A stretch of 64,000 nt of DNA from Gelidibacter salicanalis (GTDB lineage Bacteria > Bacteroidota > Bacteroidia > Flavobacteriales > Flavobacteriaceae). Below are positions 11,854 to 63,399 of this stretch, in pieces (the stretch's first letter is position 1; the number at the start of each line of letters is the position of its first letter). The position numbers and the translations under genes are program-made. The DNA lies in contig NZ_VORX01000002.1 in assembly GCF_007997285.1 (NCBI RefSeq), positions 558,001-622,000 on the forward strand, given 5' to 3'. The notes under the pieces are model-generated. The model saw nothing but the letters and a program-made list of their open reading frames with translations, was not told the origin of the DNA and searched no databases.

Positions 11854-13398
11854 ATGGCAGGAGGAAAATTATCCCCAAGACAAAAAATGATTAACCTTAT
11901 GTATTTGGTGTTTATCGCAATGATGGCACTTAATATGTCCAAAGAAGTGCTTTCAGCATTTGGGTTAATGAACGAAAGAATCAGTGATTCTAACCAATCG
12001 GCTACCGTACGTAACGCGGCATTTATGCAAGGTTTGGCTGATAAAGTTGCTGAGCAACCAGCTAAATATCAACCATTAAAACAGCAGGCAGATGCTATTG
12101 ATAAATTATCATCAGATTTTAATGCGTATTTAGAGAGCGTTAAAGCTGACTTATTGAAATCTGTCGACAATCCATCGGAATATGAGAAAATGGATAGAAC
12201 TGATTTTCTTGACGAAAAATGGTTCAGTGGAGATAAAGTCACCAAGGATGGTGAGGCGTTTTTAGCTCAAATTAAAACCTATAGAGAAGGTGTTATTGAA
12301 GTATTAGGTGAAGACAATAAAGATATCCAAGCGGATCTTAAAAAGAAGTTCGCAACGGATAACGTTAAAACTTCTGATGGCATCACTAAAGGATGGTTAA
12401 ACTATCATTTTGAAGGATTTCCAATGGTAGCTTCATTAACGAAGTTGACCCAAATGCAGGCGGATGTTAAAACGGCTGAATCTGAAGTTTTATCATCTAT
12501 GTTAGCTGGGAAACTTAAAATTGAAGCTTCTTTAACAAACTTTGATGCGATTGTTGTTCCAGACAAGACGGCTTTCTTCTCGGGAGAAGAGTTTACCGGA
12601 ACCATCATCTTAGGAAAGAAAGATCAAACCCTAAGAGCTGATAAAGTAATCATAAACGGGAAAGAATTATCACCAGATGCGATGCAGGCTGGTAAAACCA
12701 TTTTGAAATTTCCTGCCGGTGGAGTTGGAGAAAGAGAGATTGTAGGTGAATTTCAATTTAAGGAAGGCGATTCAATTATTAAAATCCCTGTAAAAAGTAG
12801 CTATGCTGTAGTTCCTAAACCAAACTCTGCAACGATTTCAGCAGATAAGATGAACGTTGTTTATCGTGGTGTTGCTAACCCTATGACTATTTCTTTTGCT
12901 GGTGTTCCGGATAATAACGTGAATGCTTCAGCGCCAGGTTTATCTAAAGGTTCTGGTACTGGTAAATATGTTATGAACCCTGGTTCTGGTAATGAAGTTA
13001 CAATTAGTGTTACAGGATCTCTTCCTGATGGGACTAAAGTGAGTGACCGATCTACGTTTAGAATTAAGGACATTCCTAAGCCATCAGGTACAATTGCTGG
13101 ACAGGCTGATAATGTCAGTTTACCAAAAAGCAATGTTGAAATTGCTACAGTGGCTGCAAAGTTATTCGATTTTGACTTTGATTTAAATATCAACGTCACA
13201 TCATTTAAAATTAAAGTTCCTGGTCAACCAACAGTTACTGTTAATGGGAACAGAATGAATGATCAAGCAAAAAGTGCGCTTCGTAAAGCCTCTAGAGGTG
13301 ATGCGGTGCAAATCTTTGAAATCAAATCACAAATTCAAGGCAATAGCAGTATTAAGTTGCTTCCAGCGTCTCCAGTATTTATAGAAATTTCTAACTAA
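11854..13398 (+). CDS. gldM: T9SS/gliding motor protein GldM
   Basis: A 514-aa protein with a short cytoplasmic start (MAGGKLSPRQKMINLMYLVF), a single transmembrane helix at about 14-33 that enters the GldL ring, and a long periplasmic part. The periplasmic part has a helical D1 domain (about 40-220) followed by beta-rich domains. These include GEEFTGTIILG, VSYRGVANPMTISFAG-type and SFKIKVPGQPTVTVNGNRM segments characteristic of GldM/PorM D2-D4. It transmits motor motion across the periplasm to the GldK/GldN ring. Length and order fit the family. Confidence 0.95.
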   Translation: MAGGKLSPRQKMINLMYLVFIAMMALNMSKEVLSAFGLMNERISDSNQSATVRNAAFMQGLADKVAEQPAKYQPLKQQADAIDKLSSDFNAYLESVKADLLKSVDNPSEYEKMDRTDFLDEKWFSGDKVTKDGEAFLAQIKTYREGVIEVLGEDNKDIQADLKKKFATDNVKTSDGITKGWLNYHFEGFPMVASLTKLTQMQADVKTAESEVLSSMLAGKLKIEASLTNFDAIVVPDKTAFFSGEEFTGTIILGKKDQTLRADKVIINGKELSPDAMQAGKTILKFPAGGVGEREIVGEFQFKEGDSIIKIPVKSSYAVVPKPNSATISADKMNVVYRGVANPMTISFAGVPDNNVNASAPGLSKGSGTGKYVMNPGSGNEVTISVTGSLPDGTKVSDRSTFRIKDIPKPSGTIAGQADNVSLPKSNVEIATVAAKLFDFDFDLNINVTSFKIKVPGQPTVTVNGNRMNDQAKSALRKASRGDAVQIFEIKSQIQGNSSIKLLPASPVFIEISN

Positions 13399-13464
13399 GA
13401 TACTTTAGCTAGCGTTGCACCGTTGCATATGAATGAAGGTAACATCCCAAATAATAATAAAAAG

Positions 13465-14364
13465 ATGAAATTTAAATATTGTTTATTAACCGTTTTAAGT
13501 GTGGGGTTGGCAGTGAGTTCGTTTGGTCAAACCAACCTGCTCAACGCAAAGACACCTGAAGATATTGGTGTGAAATCTGAAGCTCAAAAAGCTATGGATA
13601 ACGACAAACCGCTTGAGTACGGTTATGTTGATGATAGGGATATCATGTTTTCAAAAATGACTTGGGAGAAGATTGTACTTGATGAGCGAGTTAATTTTCC
13701 TTTATATTATCCTGTAGACACCAATAATATCGGATCTAACAGAAGGTCTTTATTTGATGTGTTATGGAAAAGTGTAAGAGAAGGAAAAATTAAGAACGTT
13801 TATGATGATTCTTACTTTACAACGAAACGTAACCCTTCAGATATTCAATCCATTATGTCAAAAACCGACACCTTGGATATTGGATACCAACAATACAATT
13901 CAGAAGGATTTGTATCTCCAGAATATATCATTAAAAGAAATATACAGTCTTATGACATCAGTGCTTACCTAATTAAAGGGTTATGGTATTTTGACAAACG
14001 TCAAGGCGAATTAAAGTACAGACTTTTAGGTATTGCTCCGGCGGCGGCAGACGTTAACTTTATTGACTCTGAAGATGAAGCTAACAAGCAACCCATTGCT
14101 TTGTTCTGGGTATTCTATCCTGAAGTAAGAGAGGTGTTGCATGAAGCAAAAGCGTTTAATAATGAGAACAGTTCTATGCCATTTTCCTATGATCACTTGC
14201 TGAATTCAAGACGATTCAACGGCTACATGTACAAAGAAGAGAATGTATATGGGGATAGAGAAGTTAAAGAATATGTTGCGGACAACGCATTAATGCAGTT
14301 GTTGGAATCTGATCGTATTAAAGATAAGATTCGCGATTTCGAGCAAGACATGTGGTCTTACTAA
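13465..14364 (+). CDS. gldN: T9SS ring protein GldN (PorN family)
   Basis: A 299-aa periplasmic partner of GldK. The start chosen is the ATG at 13465 (MKFKYCLLTVLSVGLAVSSFGQ), a clean signal peptide; the in-frame ATG at 13423 would add 14 polar residues before it. The mature part shows family segments such as DDRDIMFSKMTWEKIVLDERVNFPLYYP (about 45-72), RRSLFDVLWK, IKGLWYFDKRQGELKYRLLGIAP and PIALFWVFYPEVREVLHEAKAFN. It is last in the gldKLMN operon, followed by a strong terminator. Confidence 0.95.
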   Translation: MKFKYCLLTVLSVGLAVSSFGQTNLLNAKTPEDIGVKSEAQKAMDNDKPLEYGYVDDRDIMFSKMTWEKIVLDERVNFPLYYPVDTNNIGSNRRSLFDVLWKSVREGKIKNVYDDSYFTTKRNPSDIQSIMSKTDTLDIGYQQYNSEGFVSPEYIIKRNIQSYDISAYLIKGLWYFDKRQGELKYRLLGIAPAAADVNFIDSEDEANKQPIALFWVFYPEVREVLHEAKAFNNENSSMPFSYDHLLNSRRFNGYMYKEENVYGDREVKEYVADNALMQLLESDRIKDKIRDFEQDMWSY

Positions 14365-20054: not shown

Positions 20055-22127
20055 ATGAAGAAGTATCTTCTCACCCTATTTATCACGCTCTTTCCTGTTT
20101 TGTTTTTTGCTCAAGATCTAGATATTAAGGGAGATATAGTAAACCCATCAGAAGCTATCAATGATGGTGTTATTGTCGTTACAGCATCAGGAGGGGTTGC
20201 GCCTTATACTTACCGATGGAGTGACCAAAACACGCCTTTAAGCTCCAATAAAGCAATGGGTTTAACTGAAGGTGTGCCCTATACCGTAGTGGTGACAGAT
20301 TCCAATGGCGATACCAAAACCGCGGTTTATACCGTTAAGACAGGCGCAATTACAGAAGTATTTAACGGAACGATGACCCCAGCAGTGGCTGCACTTGGGG
20401 CTATTTTATTTTGGGATCCTTTTGCCGCAATTGGGGTTTATGACCCAGTGGTTTATGCAGATGAAAAGCAAATTGGGGTGCCAGATTGGACTAATGAAGT
20501 TGAAAATAAATATACACTTAAGCAGTGGCTCAAACCTGAAGGCGCTCAAGTGTCTAAAGATGTACCCATAACAATTATAACTGATAAGGAAGGCAAAGAA
20601 ATTATTGTAAATTCTTCCGCTCAAGGAACCTTAAAACATCTTACGGCAGAAGGGAAGGTCATTTATAATTCTGACAATAGTAAACACGTCATTGAGCAAG
20701 GCGCCCATAATTTCGCTCAAGTTATATATGATGAGCCAGTAGTGCTGACACATCCTAATGGAGATCCATTAACAAAGCCAATTCCATTTATTGTGATTTG
20801 GTTGGTCGTGGGAGCCGTATTCTTTACAATAAGAATGGGCTTTATAAACTTTAGAGGTTTTAAGCATGCTATAGATTTAGCACGTGGAAAATATGATGAT
20901 CCGAGCGCTCCAGGACAAGTAACCCATTTTCAAGCCTTGGCGACTGCAGTTTCTGGAACTGTTGGTTTGGGGAATATTGCCGGCGTTGCGGTAGCTGTTT
21001 CGGTTGGTGGAGCAGGCGCAACATTCTGGATGATTGTCTGTGGACTTTTGGGGATGTCAACAAAATTTGTAGAATGTACTTTAGGCGTAAAATACAGAGA
21101 TATTTTACCTGATGGACGTGTATTTGGTGGCCCAATGAACTATTTGCGTTACGGACTCGAAAAACGTCAAATGAAAGGCTTAGGAAAAGTATTGGCCGGA
21201 TTATTTGCCGTATTGGCAGTTGGCGCCTCTTTTGGAGGTGGCAACATGTTTCAGGCCAATCAGTCTTTTGAACAAATGGCTGGACAATTTCCAGTATTAG
21301 TGGGTAACGGATTCTGGTTTGGAATTATTACAGCGATTTTAGTTGGTGTGGTAATTATTGGAGGGATCAGCAGTATCGCCAAAGTAACGGGAAAAGTTGT
21401 GCCAATTATGGCTTCCATATATATAGTTGCAGCCTTGGCCGTGATTATTATGAACATTCAAAACGTTGGACCTGCATTTGCTGCTATTTACGATGGTGCA
21501 TTTAGTGCCTCCGCTTTAAAAGGTGGTGTCATTGGGGTACTGGTTGTTGGTTTCCAGCGGGCCGCGTTCTCTAATGAGGCCGGTGTTGGGTCTGCCGCTA
21601 TTGCACATAGTACGGCAAAAACCAATCACCCACCATCTGAAGGCTTTGTGGCATTATTAGAGCCCTTTATTGATACGGTTGTAGTGTGTACATTAACTGC
21701 ACTTGTTTTGATCTTTACCGGAATGCACGAAGTTGAAGGTTTGGCAGGAGCGCAGTTAACGTCTGATGCTTTTGGAAGTCAAATTTCTTGGTTCCCATAT
21801 GTGTTGGCGGTAGCAGTATTCTTATTCGCGTTCTCTACTATGATTTCATGGTCCTACTACGGAATGAGAGCTTGGACATACTTATTTGGGAAAAGCAAAA
21901 AAATCGAATTCATTTACAAAATGTTATTCTTAGTATTTGTGGTTATTGGAGCTTCAGTAAGTTTAGGCGCTGTGTTAGATTTCTCAGATATGATGATTTT
22001 GGCTATGTCATTCCCTAATATTATTGGGCTTTACATCATGTCAAAAGAAGTCAAATTTGATTTGGATGCGTATATCGTAAAACTCAAGGCTAATTTGCTT
22101 TATAAAAAGCAAGAGCCTAATAATTAA
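20055..22127 (+). CDS. Alanine/glycine:cation symporter (AGCS) with secreted SprB-like N-terminal domain
   Basis: A 690-aa protein. Residues 1-20 are a signal peptide ([20 protein letters not shown]). Residues about 25-95 resemble a SprB repeat ([20 protein letters not shown], then [19 protein letters not shown]), a beta domain common in secreted flavobacterial proteins. About 105-245 is a further region with one hydrophobic stretch. From about 248 the AGCS transporter core begins: [43 protein letters not shown] and [17 protein letters not shown] are the family motifs. It should import small amino acids with Na+. Bacterial AGCS proteins are usually about 450-500 aa, so the extension is an addition facing outward. 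Confidence 0.88.
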
Positions 22128-23046: not shown

Positions 23047-24213
23047 ATGAACAGCATGTACTTCACAGAAGAACATCAACTTTTTAGAAAAAGTTTACAA
23101 GATTTCTTAAAGAAAGAGGTCGTTCCGCATATTGACAAGTGGGAAAAAACAGGAACTATTGAACGATTTATTTGGAAAAAGTTTGGAGATATGGGCTTCT
23201 TCGGAATCAATTATCCTGAAGCTTATGGCGGAATGGATCTCGATTTATTCTACACGGTTATTTTTCTTGAGGAATTACAAAAGATAAATTCGGGAGGCTT
23301 TGCTGCAGCTATGTGGGCTCATGCTTATTTGGCCATGACCCACCTTAATAAGGAGGGCAGTCATGACATCAAAGAAAAGTATTTGGCGCCTAGTATTACC
23401 GGCGATAAAATTGGGTGTTTATGTATCACCGAGCCTTTTGGTGGAAGTGATGTTGCAGGAATGCGCACCACAGCAATAAAACAGGGGGACAGGTATGTGA
23501 TTAATGGTTCTAAAACCTTTATCACTAACGGTATTTACAGTGATTATTTGATAGTTGCTGCCAAAACAGATCCAGATGCAGGACACAACGGGATGAGCAT
23601 TTTTGTGATGGACAGAGATACCCCAGGGATTTCGTCTACTAAATTGGACAAGTTGGGCTGGAGAGCATCAGATACTGGAGAGATTGCATTTGATAATGTG
23701 ACCATTCCAGCCGATCAATTGATGGGCGAAGAAGGCAAAGGCTTTCCTTACATTATGCAACATTTTGCCTTGGAACGCTTGATTATGGGGATTAACGCCC
23801 ATGCCAGAGCTGAGTTTGCCTTGGAATATGCGGTGCAGTATATGTCTGAGCGTACTGCGTTTGGCAGAACCATTGATAAATTTCAAGCTCTGCGTCATAA
23901 AGTTGCCGATTACTATACGGAAATGGAAATATCCAAGGAATTCAATTATTCTGTAGCCCACCGTTTGAATAAAGGCGAATACGTAGTGAAAGAGGCGACC
24001 ATGTCTAAATTGCACGCCACTAAAATGGCTGATGAAATTATTTACGGGTGTCTGCAATTTTTAGGCGGCTATGGCTATATGGAAGATTATCCATTGGCAA
24101 GAATGCTTCGTGATAGCCGACTAGGCCCAATCGGCGGCGGCACTTCTGAAATTTTGAGAGAAATTATCGCTAAAATGGTGATTGATAAGAAGGACTATAA
24201 ACCTAGCACCTAA
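23047..24213 (+). CDS. Acyl-CoA dehydrogenase (LCAD-like)
   Basis: A 388-aa FAD enzyme that oxidises acyl-CoA to trans-2-enoyl-CoA in beta-oxidation. Motifs: CITEPFGGSDVAGMRT (about 139-154), GSKTFITNG, RTAFGRTIDKFQALRH and LQFLGGYGYMEDYPLARMLRDSR. The end reads PIGGGTSEILREIIAKMVI. The Glu of the short/medium-chain YEGTS motif is Gly here. Glu243 in FALERLIM matches the ERL catalytic base of long-chain and isovaleryl enzymes, so LCAD-like chemistry is likely. The start could also be the ATG at 23056. Its last 17 codons are the first copy of the 88-bp tandem array that follows. Confidence 0.92.
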   Translation: MNSMYFTEEHQLFRKSLQDFLKKEVVPHIDKWEKTGTIERFIWKKFGDMGFFGINYPEAYGGMDLDLFYTVIFLEELQKINSGGFAAAMWAHAYLAMTHLNKEGSHDIKEKYLAPSITGDKIGCLCITEPFGGSDVAGMRTTAIKQGDRYVINGSKTFITNGIYSDYLIVAAKTDPDAGHNGMSIFVMDRDTPGISSTKLDKLGWRASDTGEIAFDNVTIPADQLMGEEGKGFPYIMQHFALERLIMGINAHARAEFALEYAVQYMSERTAFGRTIDKFQALRHKVADYYTEMEISKEFNYSVAHRLNKGEYVVKEATMSKLHATKMADEIIYGCLQFLGGYGYMEDYPLARMLRDSRLGPIGGGTSEILREIIAKMVIDKKDYKPST

Positions 24214-24829
24214 TATTTTAAATCACTATTTGGCGAACATTCCTCACGGAATTATCGCTAAAATGGTGATTGATAAAAAGGATTATAAACCTGCCACCTA
24301 ATATTTTAAATCACCATTTTAGCGAACATTCCTCACGGAATTATCGCTAAAATGGTGATTGATAAGAAGGACTATAAACCTGCCACCTAATATTTTAAAT
24401 CACTATTTGGCGAACATTCCTCACGGAATTATCGCTAAAATGGTGATTGATAAAAAGGATTATAAACCTGCCACCTAATATTTTAAATCAGCATTTGGCG
24501 AACATTCCTCACGGAATTATCGCTAAAATGGTGATTGATAAGAAGGACTATAAACCTGCCACCTAATATTTTAAATCAGCATTTGGCGAACATTCTCACG
24601 GAATTATCGCTAAAATGGTGATTGATAAGAAGGACTATAAACCTGCCACCTAATATTTTAAATCAGCATTTGGCGAACATTCCTCACGGAATTATCGCTA
24701 AAATGGTGATTGATAAAAAGGATTATAAACCTGCCACCTAATATTTTAAATCAGCATTTGGCGAACATTCCCAACGGAATTATCGCCAAGATGGTGATTG
24801 ACAAGAAGGATTATAAGCCGGCAACTTAG
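24162..24829 (+). repeat. 88-bp tandem repeat array made of the acyl-CoA dehydrogenase 3' end plus trailer
   Basis: The segment beginning AATTATCGCTAAAATGG starts at 24162 (inside the gene), 24250, 24339, 24427, 24515, 24602, 24690 and 24778. The spacings are 88, 89, 88, 88, 87, 88 and 88 bases. Each unit holds the codons for IIAKMVIDKKDYKP(A/S)T plus stop, then a 37-bp trailer (TATTTTAAATCA...CATTCCTCACGG). Copies 1, 3, 5 and 6 carry AAG/GAC; copies 2, 4 and 7 carry AAA/GAT at the two variable codons, hinting at growth by dimers. Copy 8 (24778-24829) is the most diverged and lacks the trailer. This array fills most of the 735-bp gap before the next gene. Confidence 0.95.
24309..24360. repeat. 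Long hairpin within repeat unit (17-bp perfect arms)
   Basis: AATCACCATTTTAGCGA (24309-24325) is the exact reverse complement of TCGCTAAAATGGTGATT (24344-24360). The 18-base loop itself holds ATTCC-TCAC-GGAAT. The left arm is trailer, the right arm is the copied coding sequence. The other units have the same hairpin with 2-4 mismatches in the left arm. Confidence 0.9.
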
Positions 24830-24861
24830 CGAGGATATAGTCTCGCATCTCAACATATAAA

Positions 24862-24907
24862 AACCTCATTTAGTGAATTTAAGTCCACTCAAATGAGGTT
24901 TTTTTTT
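24862..24907 (+). terminator. Rho-independent terminator after the repeat array
   Basis: AACCTCATTTAGTG pairs with CACTCAAATGAGGTT (one bulge), followed by a run of nine T. It ends transcription of the acyl-CoA dehydrogenase unit and its repeat trailer, so the array is probably transcribed. Confidence 0.85.
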
Positions 24908-24949
24908 ATACTTTTAAGCCCAAGTCACTACTAATCTACCATCTACAAC

Positions 24950-27140: not shown

Positions 27141-28052
27141 ATGTCTGCACCACATTCAGAATTCGCCTATTTTTCAGAATATCTCCGTCACGAAAAGAAC
27201 TATTCTGAACTGACGGTCAAGGCGTACCTTACAGATCTTGAAGCGTTTTCAGAATTTATGGCAGAGGAGTCAGGCTATAAAACTATTCAAGATGTCCATT
27301 ATTCCCAAATAAGAACATGGATCGTAGCGTTGGTAGAAACTCAAATATCCAACCGAACAATTAATCGGAAAATTTCCGCTTTAAATTCCTATTTTAAATT
27401 TTTGATCAAGACCGGAACCATTGAAGCAAATCCGCTATCCAAACACAGAGCTTTAAAAATGACCAAAAAAGTTCAAATTCCATTTTCGCAAAAAGAGATG
27501 GGCGATGTGATGAAGATTTTGGAAACTGAGTCTGATTTTGAAGGCCTAAGAAATCGATTGATTGTGGAATTGTTTTATGCTACAGGCATTCGTCGCATAG
27601 AGCTGATTGACATTAAGATGAAAGATATAGATTTCTCCAATAAAACTTTAAAAGTACTGGGAAAACGGAATAAAGAACGTTTTATCCCGTTAATTGATGC
27701 GGTGGTAGTAACGGCCAAGCAGTATTTAGAATTTCGAAGCACTCTAAACAGGGTTCAAGATTCTGAATATTTGTTTCTAACCAAAAAAGGGTTAAAAGTA
27801 TATGAAACCCTTGTTTACAGAATTATAAATGAGTATTTTAGTAAAGCATCTTTAAAAGTAAAAAAGAGTCCGCATATTTTGAGGCACTCTTTTGCGACCC
27901 ACTTACTTAATGAAGGTGCTGATTTAAATGCGGTAAAGGAATTGCTTGGACATTCCAGTTTAGCGGCTACACAGGTTTATACCCACAATAGTATCGCGGA
28001 ATTAAAAAAGGTGTACGATAGTGCACATCCAAGAAGTATAAATAATAACTAG
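27141..28052 (+). CDS. Tyrosine recombinase, XerC/XerD type
   Basis: A 303-aa site-specific recombinase expected to resolve chromosome dimers at dif. The N-terminal SAM-like domain (about 5-90: YFSEYLRHEKNYSELTVKAYLTDL) binds the core site. The catalytic domain has Arg in TGIRRIEL (about 149-156), Lys in LKVLGKRNKERFIPL, HxxR in HILRHSFATHLL, LGHSS and the nucleophile Tyr in TQVYTH near the end. It lies between rpsU and hpf, a common flavobacterial order, which argues for the housekeeping enzyme rather than a mobile-element integrase. Whether it is XerC or XerD cannot be decided here. Confidence 0.9.
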   Translation: MSAPHSEFAYFSEYLRHEKNYSELTVKAYLTDLEAFSEFMAEESGYKTIQDVHYSQIRTWIVALVETQISNRTINRKISALNSYFKFLIKTGTIEANPLSKHRALKMTKKVQIPFSQKEMGDVMKILETESDFEGLRNRLIVELFYATGIRRIELIDIKMKDIDFSNKTLKVLGKRNKERFIPLIDAVVVTAKQYLEFRSTLNRVQDSEYLFLTKKGLKVYETLVYRIINEYFSKASLKVKKSPHILRHSFATHLLNEGADLNAVKELLGHSSLAATQVYTHNSIAELKKVYDSAHPRSINNN

Positions 28053-63336: not shown

Positions 63337-63365
63337 CAAATATAACTATTTTTATAGTTATACAA
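63337..63365 (-). promoter_or_regulatory. Promoter of the blaI-blaR1-like operon
   Basis: Minus strand: TTG (63365-63363), an 18-base spacer and TATATTTG (63344-63337), an exact consensus. The first operator dyad fills the spacer and the second covers the TTG. The expected leader is about 43 bases. Confidence 0.75.
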
Positions 63366-63399
63366 CTATCATTCTAGTTATTTAACTCAAATAATAGTT
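63344..63399. promoter_or_regulatory. Three evenly spaced BlaI-type operators
   Basis: AACTATTTTTATAGTT (63344-63359), AACTATCATTCTAGTT (63364-63379) and AACTCAAATAATAGTT (63384-63399): three 16-bp dyads of the form AACTA-N6-TAGTT at exact 20-bp steps. The first has perfect 6-base arms, the third keeps AACT/AGTT. The spacing puts them on nearly the same face of the helix. Confidence 0.8.

Follow-up and report, generated by a model that had tools for sequence, protein, structure and literature searches.

Several described systems come close to the locus reported here. Minisatellites, or variable number tandem repeats (VNTRs), consist of head-to-tail units whose copy number differs between relatives, with dimer-like higher order. 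Repetitive extragenic palindromes (REPs) and bacterial interspersed mosaic elements (BIMEs), with their REP-associated tyrosine transposases (RAYTs) of the Y1 type, form hairpins in 3' regions, sometimes in arrays. In diversity-generating retroelements (DGRs) the 3' end of a gene is repeated downstream together with a hairpin, while integrase attB sites at gene 3' ends, integron attC sites and Xer/dif between them offer gene-end recognition, restoration of the gene and folded or repeated sites. Template-switch mutagenesis at quasi-palindromes would explain the homogenisation of hairpin arms. Our subject is an array in a 64,000-nucleotide stretch of the Gelidibacter salicanalis genome (contig NZ_VORX01000002.1, positions 558,001 to 622,000; the window, whose own numbering is used throughout), where the end of an acyl-CoA dehydrogenase (ACAD) gene is repeated behind the gene. 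The element is tandem, occurs in Flavobacteriaceae at this single gene and is made of the host's own ACAD end. Each unit comprises a non-coding segment, T, and a tail copy of about 15 codons ending in a stop codon.

For REP/BIME, DGR, dif and terminator arrays alike, a defining feature was tested and is missing here. The element shares with minisatellites tandem units and copy-number differences between relatives (1-7 extra copies in 51/243 loci), but it differs from them in that gene end, unit length and hairpin stay the same across 24 or more genus codes, its tails show a third-position pattern and its presence is linked to synonymous codons outside the repeat. Identity with REP/RAYT was rejected: the unit is not dispersed, being present in its own genome at this locus only, and array presence has no link to Y1 transposase genes, which occur in 9/24 array genomes among the 299 searched and in 116/299 overall. 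A DGR was likewise rejected, as no reverse transcriptase is present among 14 proteins scanned between 11854 and 32719 (a subset of the open reading frames, ORFs), the peptide is mostly preserved in the copies, and differences between copies are not adenine-specific (A/G 69, C/T 50, others 51; n=170, transitions 119/170). Compared with attB, attC and dif, the array has no visible cargo, no linked integrase beyond the chromosomal xerC, variable spacing and non-identical spacers. A dif site is, as a rule, single, 28 bp long, intergenic and near the terminus (PMC3091885), whereas the ACAD array holds up to eight copies with a coding half-site. Template switching alone gives neither a one-gene array nor a link to outer codons. 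A known RNA family was rejected as well, since Rfam at gathering score returns only tRNAs in the window and none of its models in the array; miRNA and other models stay below threshold.

The array and its recurrence in Flavobacteriaceae

A first-pass annotation had described the ACAD 3' end as an 88-bp tandem array at 24162-24829, and this description is borne out. Eight copies of the gene end stand there head to tail, the gene's own end and seven downstream, with AATTATCGCT...stop plus trailer as the recurring segment and start-to-start spacings of 88, 89, 88, 88, 87, 88 and 88, exactly as claimed. Tandem Repeats Finder (TRF) places a period of 88 at 24162-24816 (7.4 copies, 95% match, score 1154), the final tail copy extending to 24829. 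It also fits periods of 175 (score 1168) and 263 (score 1177), which is consistent with the annotation's idea of growth by dimer units. The alternation of AAG/GAC and AAA/GAT in copies 0-3, with a trailer variant CACT recurring in the same rhythm, adds to the plausibility of that idea. When units are counted from a conserved Ala codon, each joins 42-44 nt of T to a 45-nt tail that closes at the stop codon, and it is this mixed coding and non-coding segment, not a repeat domain of the protein, that was amplified. A terminator was said to lie only behind the array, and a hairpin with a T run does stand there. In the array region a T run follows only the hairpin at 24859-24903, and the units do not fit the definition of hairpin plus T run. 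A stock scan found no terminator-like site inside the array; its loop limit was 8, and it also missed the terminator at 24859, which has a 19-nt loop. The annotation's interpretation thus stands for mixed-unit amplification and is plausible for dimer growth, but 'amplified 3' end' names a result and not an explanation. Beyond it lie the finding that much of the trailer is an inverted copy of the following tail's coding sequence, and with this the hairpins, the recurrence in the family, the third-position copy pattern and the link to synonymous codons.

Extra copies of the locus's own gene end, 1-7 in number, occur at 51 of the 243 unique ACAD loci from Flavobacteriaceae (44/204 in a first set and 7/39 among new loci). 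There is one extra copy at 30 loci, and there are two at 12, three at 4, four at 2 and seven at 3; 89 of 95 spacings measure 83-92 bp. The genus count given above includes weak copies. All nine Gelidibacter genomes searched are affected, seven with an array and two with a contig ending inside it (L014, L016; L and G numbers denote loci and genomes). The 192 loci with no tail copy include six decayed remnants (L046, L076, L190, L204, L206, L229) and three cut by a contig end (L014, L016, L212), both groups recognised with a covariance model, R1. As this model also matches the gene's own tail in most copy-less loci, only matches downstream of the stop were counted. The first set drew on 120 of 186 matched genomes, 24 duplicates being removed from 228 loci to keep 204; the later hold-out drew on 32 new genomes of 237 matched and 42 loci, of which L300, L301 and L310 were dropped as duplicates and L285 and L286 (no copies) could not be scored. 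A named set, the best 80 of 585 loci found and leaning to close relatives, has a tail copy at 22/80. Within these 80 loci, 0/392 other gene ends have a downstream tail copy of score >=50, against 19/77 ACAD ends.

When the own genome was searched with the unit's covariance model, only the ACAD locus matched (next best E = 0.14), which runs counter to the trailer being a dispersed mobile repeat, one of two outcomes that the annotation had named as fatal to it. A pattern search of 98 genomes gave 14 matches, 11 at ACAD ends and three in the first 175 bases of contigs (G004:C5, G006:C48); the latter are presumed to be broken arrays. The other fatal outcome, an assembly artefact, fares no better, for single-contig genomes also have arrays (L107 = NZ_CP113088.1, 4 extra copies; L308 from G496, 7 extra). 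Among 196 genomes drawn from the order, ACAD at E <= 1e-150 occurred in 16, all of the same family.

Three loci depart from the usual form. L250 (G181; region 0-382 nt behind the gene) alone among array loci has a longer insert: about 330 nt separate the gene from a tail copy that looks coding, and they open with a GGCGAAAAA...TCGC stretch resembling the T motif. In L100 (Flavivirga algicola) the array is interrupted about 40-90 nt behind the gene by a run of N, and the next copy follows at double the normal period; a unit may have been masked or fall in a gap. In L013 (G001) the ACAD stop is lost and the protein ends in ...KPASLTF and not ...KPAT, while the downstream copy still encodes AKMVIDKKDYKPAT and a stop.

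Array presence is partly inherited and changes often. Parsimony needs 35 changes for the 50/200 loci that carry an array or a remnant, where shuffles average 44 and never fall below 38, and a single origin at the root of the tree would need 65 losses. Empty sites were compared in 22 array/empty pairs at >=80% gene identity. For six of them, the sequence following the last copy can be aligned over more than 100 nt to that following the empty relative's gene: L112, L113 and L199 against L124 (118/120, 107/113 and 108/114), L122 against L115 (103/110), L116 against L123 (106/119) and L130 against L098 (83/110), the alignments beginning 0, 0, 11, 12, 39 and 0 nt behind the stop for L112, L113, L199, L122, L116 and L130. 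T has only chance-level matches in the empty flanks of these pairs. The remaining 16 are too diverged or different, and in the Kordia pair L103/L118 part of T matches the empty flank (30/33). Such clean empty sites would fit loss by tail-tail recombination; the counts give no direction.

Hairpins that reach into coding sequence

T carries a conserved motif, TTTTnGCGAAAAT, able to pair with the tail behind it or the tail in front. In the window its left arm reads TTTGGCGAACATTCC or TTTTAGCGAACATTCC and complements the start of the following tail (GGAATTATCGCTAAAATGG), which makes each junction a hairpin with its right arm extending into the coding region. A junction consists of TTTTnGCGAAAAT, mostly 6-8 nt, and then ATTATCGCnAAAAT or a variant. 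Folded as RNA, 24150-24910 reaches z = -10.9 relative to 20 shuffles; as single-stranded DNA the seven junctions reach z -3.4 to -8.2, the weakest being matched by 1/200 shuffles. T segment 2 differs from its sister segments by three changes that together yield a perfect palindrome, the pattern that template switching would give. From stop to Ala codon, T measures 35-43 nt in 39/44 first units.

Evidence that the hairpin is maintained comes from an alignment (A1) of 38/44 first units, with L073, L100, L103, L106, L132 and L250 left out. Cells of a 20-pair stem are paired in 86.7% of cases, compared with 34-54% when the arms are slid, and double changes occur in 35 cells against 10.8 in shuffles (0/500 as high). 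Most fall in column pairs 24-52 (14 cells), 12-64 (9) and 15-61 (7), where the coding side is a third codon position. The non-coding arm thus follows synonymous changes of the coding arm, which varies at third positions. Decayed units (L068, the second unit of L070, L190) keep paired arms after departing from the gene sequence. Few parts of the alignment are as conserved as the non-coding left motif: AAAAT (columns 28-32) is kept in 37, 37, 32, 38 and 38 of 38, and the following columns are free. Pairing alone does not explain this conservation, as column 29 has no partner and the partners of columns 30-32 vary.

Of 266 differences between tail copies and the gene, 46, 52 and 168 fall at codon positions 1, 2 and 3 (63% third), and changed codons are synonymous in 143 cases and non-synonymous in 81 (L106, L130, L132, L073, L250 and copies of <75% identity left out). 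Plain decay behind a synonymously changing gene would put about half of the differences at third positions, by our own estimate. The third-position share is high in intact copies (second copy of L045 6/6, L086 10/11, L103 8/8, last copy of the window 9/11) and lower in decay-like ones (second of L054 5/11, L068 3/10, second of L070 3/9, third of L127 3/12). We read this excess as a sign of exchange so frequent that the gene could come to end in any one of the tails. In the window, the final copy departs from the gene at nine third positions and in two further bases of the gene's own Ser codon. The idea that it is the native tail was dropped, for it matches L010 and L017 equally (39/45) and its own gene at 34/45. 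Between distant genomes, third-position identity in distal tail codons is 0.442 for array-bearing and 0.457 for empty loci, so that tails look native and not passed between genera; horizontal transfer of tails was rejected on this ground. In the five arm codons it is 0.59 against 0.445 (0/100 label permutations as high). Remnants, L250 and L073 do not enter these comparisons. Constraint is thus confined to the arm and the stretch just upstream.

Synonymous letters in the gene and the presence of an array

Synonymous sites are usually treated as near-neutral. Genomes with and without arrays nevertheless differ in third-position use across a site of about 33 bp, codons -8 to +2 counted from the Ala codon. 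It has the form TCTGAAATY...ATTATCGCnAAAATG, and part of it (24145-24161) lies outside the repeated segment. The link was assessed on 22 phylogenetically independent pairs, with remnants, L250 and L073 left out. It holds for codon -8 TCT (32/45 array against 31/147 empty, p 0.013), -7 GAA (p 0.039), -6 ATA (0/45 against 63/147, p 0.0005) and -1 ATC (40/45 against 26/147, p 0.001). The codons tested between -27 and -9 and between +3 and +12 are not linked to arrays (p >=0.18). Codons -8 to -6 lie upstream of both the repeated segment and the hairpin, and have no partner in the consensus fold of gene end and first unit. Gene site and junction are laid out alike, with a left motif containing AAAT followed after about 6-10 nt by ATTATCGCnAAAAT.

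Scored over 200 loci (L134 and three loci lacking the [IL][AS]K motif left out), the full site is present in 34, comprising 28 array, 3 remnant and 3 empty loci, and absent from 166, comprising 19 array, 3 remnant and 144 empty loci. Five array loci with a site score of <=5 of 8 hold a single copy each, with alignment scores of 36-76. As the letters had been chosen among 30 codons on the same data, new genomes were taken as a hold-out. There, 5/5 loci with the full site have arrays, of 2-7 extra copies, against 2/32 without it (Fisher p 4.8e-5). One of the two exceptions, L280, misses one of eight letters, and its ATTGC is matched by its T motif, GCAAAAAT; the other, L303, has one weak copy. 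Silent sites here go with a structural DNA feature behind the gene.

What may maintain the array

Comparison of genomes gives the copies, the covariation of the hairpin, the codon link and the clean presence or absence in close pairs, and a neutral minisatellite explains neither the restriction to one gene nor the outer codons. Something would therefore seem to read the nucleotides there, and the data point to a process in which a DNA or RNA site concealed within protein-coding sequence is read. The account we rank first, at somewhat below an even chance, is that a putative factor reads the gene site and drives duplication of the gene end by site-guided exchange or re-copying. It is favoured because site and junction share their layout, change proceeds by whole units and the gene end is restored. 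A putative DNA-binding or strand-exchanging activity would recognise the site in the coding end, and the junctions would act as its second version. Exchange or re-copying between site and junction, or between two junctions on sister chromosomes, would add or remove one unit of T and tail each time. Every product would retain an intact gene end because any tail can serve, and tails would thereby stay coding-like. The left arm may stay complementary through selection on the hairpin or through template switching inside it. With drift of the gene site the array would no longer be renewed and would decay. The recognition by a protein, the exchange step and this order, site lost and then array decayed, are inferred. 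More tentatively, the array would be a new locus-specific element in which a putative enzyme reads the synonymous-codon site and repeatedly re-copies the gene end, the array decaying once the silent letters drift. Its product, with equal reserve, would be a stack of interchangeable coding-competent endings, joined by hairpins with one coding and one non-coding arm and gained or lost cleanly. In the open-access literature, as judged from titles and the beginnings of abstracts, a search returned no description of such an array, and on that basis we consider the kind of element new, a judgement that would fall if mutation alone were the explanation.

A number of observations weigh against site-guided exchange. 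No enzyme was found, and an RNA-level function would likewise explain site and hairpin. Measured against a tyrosine-recombinase core, the picture is mixed: inverted half-sites are present, and the distance from the end of the motif to the Ala codon varies from 11-17 nt (12-14 in 30/38 first units with a recognisable motif), where a core site would have a fixed overlap of 6-8 bp. The gene spacer (Leu-Arg-Glu codons) differs from the junction spacer in the loci compared by eye, though a shared overlap is expected. Variable spacing and differing spacers speak against a textbook tyrosine-recombinase site. In the codon analysis, positions were chosen on the same data before the pair test, over 30 codons and uncorrected; strict correction would pass only codon -6 and, marginally, -1. 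Codons -2 (ATT, p 0.065), +1 (AAA in 45/45 array against 114/147 empty, but p 0.125) and +2 miss 0.05, and codons -5, -4, -3 and 0 within the site are not linked to arrays (p 0.18-0.55). Of the array loci, 19/47 (three contig-cut included) lack the full site, while 3/147 empty loci possess it (L124, L128, L231); the hold-out, where 7 of 37 scorable loci have arrays, is the only independent set. The label permutation for the arm codons ignores relatedness. In the covariation analysis, the number of pairs showing any double change, 6, is reached by 126/500 shuffles, and single covarying columns on independent pairs go one way but are too few.

Ranked next, and in our view possible if somewhat unlikely, is a functional 3' untranslated region (3'-UTR) RNA. 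The hairpins would act in the ACAD mRNA, in stability, small-RNA processing or as a nuclease barrier, with copy number as dose; ordinary unequal recombination between tails would supply the units, and the gene letters would be constrained as RNA. The position of the terminator, by which the copies may all be transcribed, the compensatory changes that keep the hairpin even in the decayed units named above, and A/U-rich AAAUU stretches in the conserved motifs (our own reading) are in its favour. The Rfam result in the array, the unpaired codons -8 to -6 and the 192 loci without a tail copy (remnants and contig-cut loci among them) are less easily accommodated. A less probable account invokes mutation alone, with neither trans-acting factor nor function: the left arm would be created and mended by template switching in a quasi-palindrome, while units would come and go through slippage of the 45-nt tails or unequal crossing-over among them. 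The palindrome of T segment 2 is what such switching, a process named in PMC7202029 and PMC8604942, would produce, and the frequent changes in array presence are also in keeping with it. It leaves the single gene (0/392 others), the conserved AAAAT and the synonymous codons outside the repeat unexplained.

That each unit is an att site of an integrative element (phage, integrative and conjugative element or Xer-using) at the ACAD 3' end is improbable. The restored gene end, half-site-like motifs, patchy distribution and clean empty sites would suit it, as would xerC at 27141-28052, 2.3 kb downstream of the array, which only its position makes a candidate. The T motif also occurs exactly, as TTTTTGCGAAAAT, within xerC (27482-27494, minus strand), possibly by chance. 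Contrary to an attachment site, no further tail lies beyond 700 nt in 75 unique named loci (69 with >=3.5 kb downstream); unnamed loci cover about 1.3 kb downstream, where larger elements would be missed. Where the neighbours are unusual (10 loci), reading the ORFs by eye showed xerC in 8 and no recognisable integrase in the other 2. The tails look native and spacers are not shared. No array match occurred in plasmids or phages, nor in viral contigs by one strict tail pattern, and a mobile or phage origin was rejected accordingly. Assembly artefact or chance can hardly be credited: contigs of G004, G006, G100 and G210 do end inside the array (L016, L014, L212, L258), yet arrays stand in the single-contig genomes (L107, L308), array units differ in order and sequence, and 51 of 243 loci share the feature. 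Assembly artefact, REP and DGR are not supported.

If site-guided exchange by an enzyme holds, it would be a gene-targeting duplication system not described before, offering natural site variants, a copy number that is cheap to assay and a 33-bp site open to testing. If RNA function holds, a 3'-UTR element would have been multiplied in at least 24 genus codes. Either would account for the contig ends at the locus in four assemblies and provide a natural system for hairpin-linked concerted evolution.

Table 1. Coordinates of the ACAD gene, the embedded site, the array units and the terminator in the window
Feature	Coordinates	Strand	Remarks
ACAD gene, 388 aa	23047..24213	+	Pfam PF02771, PF02770, PF00441 (Acyl-CoA_dh_N, Acyl-CoA_dh_M, Acyl-CoA_dh_1); last codons are array copy 0
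Gene-embedded site TCTGAAATTTTGAGAGAAATTATCGCTAAAATG	24145..24177	+	Codons -8 to +2 around Ala; several synonymous letters linked to arrays family-wide
Tail copy 0 (gene end, Ala codon to stop)	24169..24213	+	Repeat comparison
T segment 1	24214..24256	+	Trailer, left hairpin arm, loop, right arm up to Ala codon
Tail copy 1	24257..24301	+	Repeat comparison
T segment 2	24302..24345	+	Left arm CACCATTTTAGCGA perfectly complements next copy's start; sister segments differ
Strongest array hairpin	24304..24365	+	Arms 24304-24332/24337-24365, 86% complementary, z -8.2; right arm enters tail copy 2
Tail copy 2	24346..24390	+	Repeat comparison
T segment 3	24391..24433	+	
Tail copy 3	24434..24478	+	Repeat comparison
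T segment 4	24479..24521	+	
Tail copy 4	24522..24566	+	Repeat comparison
T segment 5	24567..24608	+	One base shorter
Tail copy 5	24609..24653	+	Repeat comparison
T segment 6	24654..24696	+	
Tail copy 6	24697..24741	+	Repeat comparison
T segment 7	24742..24784	+	
Tail copy 7 (last)	24785..24829	+	Peptide AKMVIDKKDYKPAT as in other copies; nine third-position differences from gene
Intrinsic terminator behind array	24859..24911	+	13-nt perfect arms 24859-24871/24891-24903, then T run

Minor observations concern the units and their surroundings. A sigma-70-like TTTAAA-17-TATAAT/TATAGT recurs antisense to the units (24194-24750, minus strand, 9-10/12); this consensus is not that of Bacteroidota and the recurrence may mean nothing. 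The sole other TRF row of the window at score >=50 is an unrelated 20-bp direct repeat of 2.4 copies at 63340-63387. The window also contains gldM and gldN at 11854-14364 and a sodium:alanine symporter at 20055-22127 with an SprB-type repeat at residues 36-60 (Pfam Na_Ala_symp and SprB). At other loci, for example L075 and L119, rpsU (S21) has a strong Shine-Dalgarno sequence, GAGAGGAGG or AAAGGAGGTGA, upstream, which is unusual for the host's phylum.

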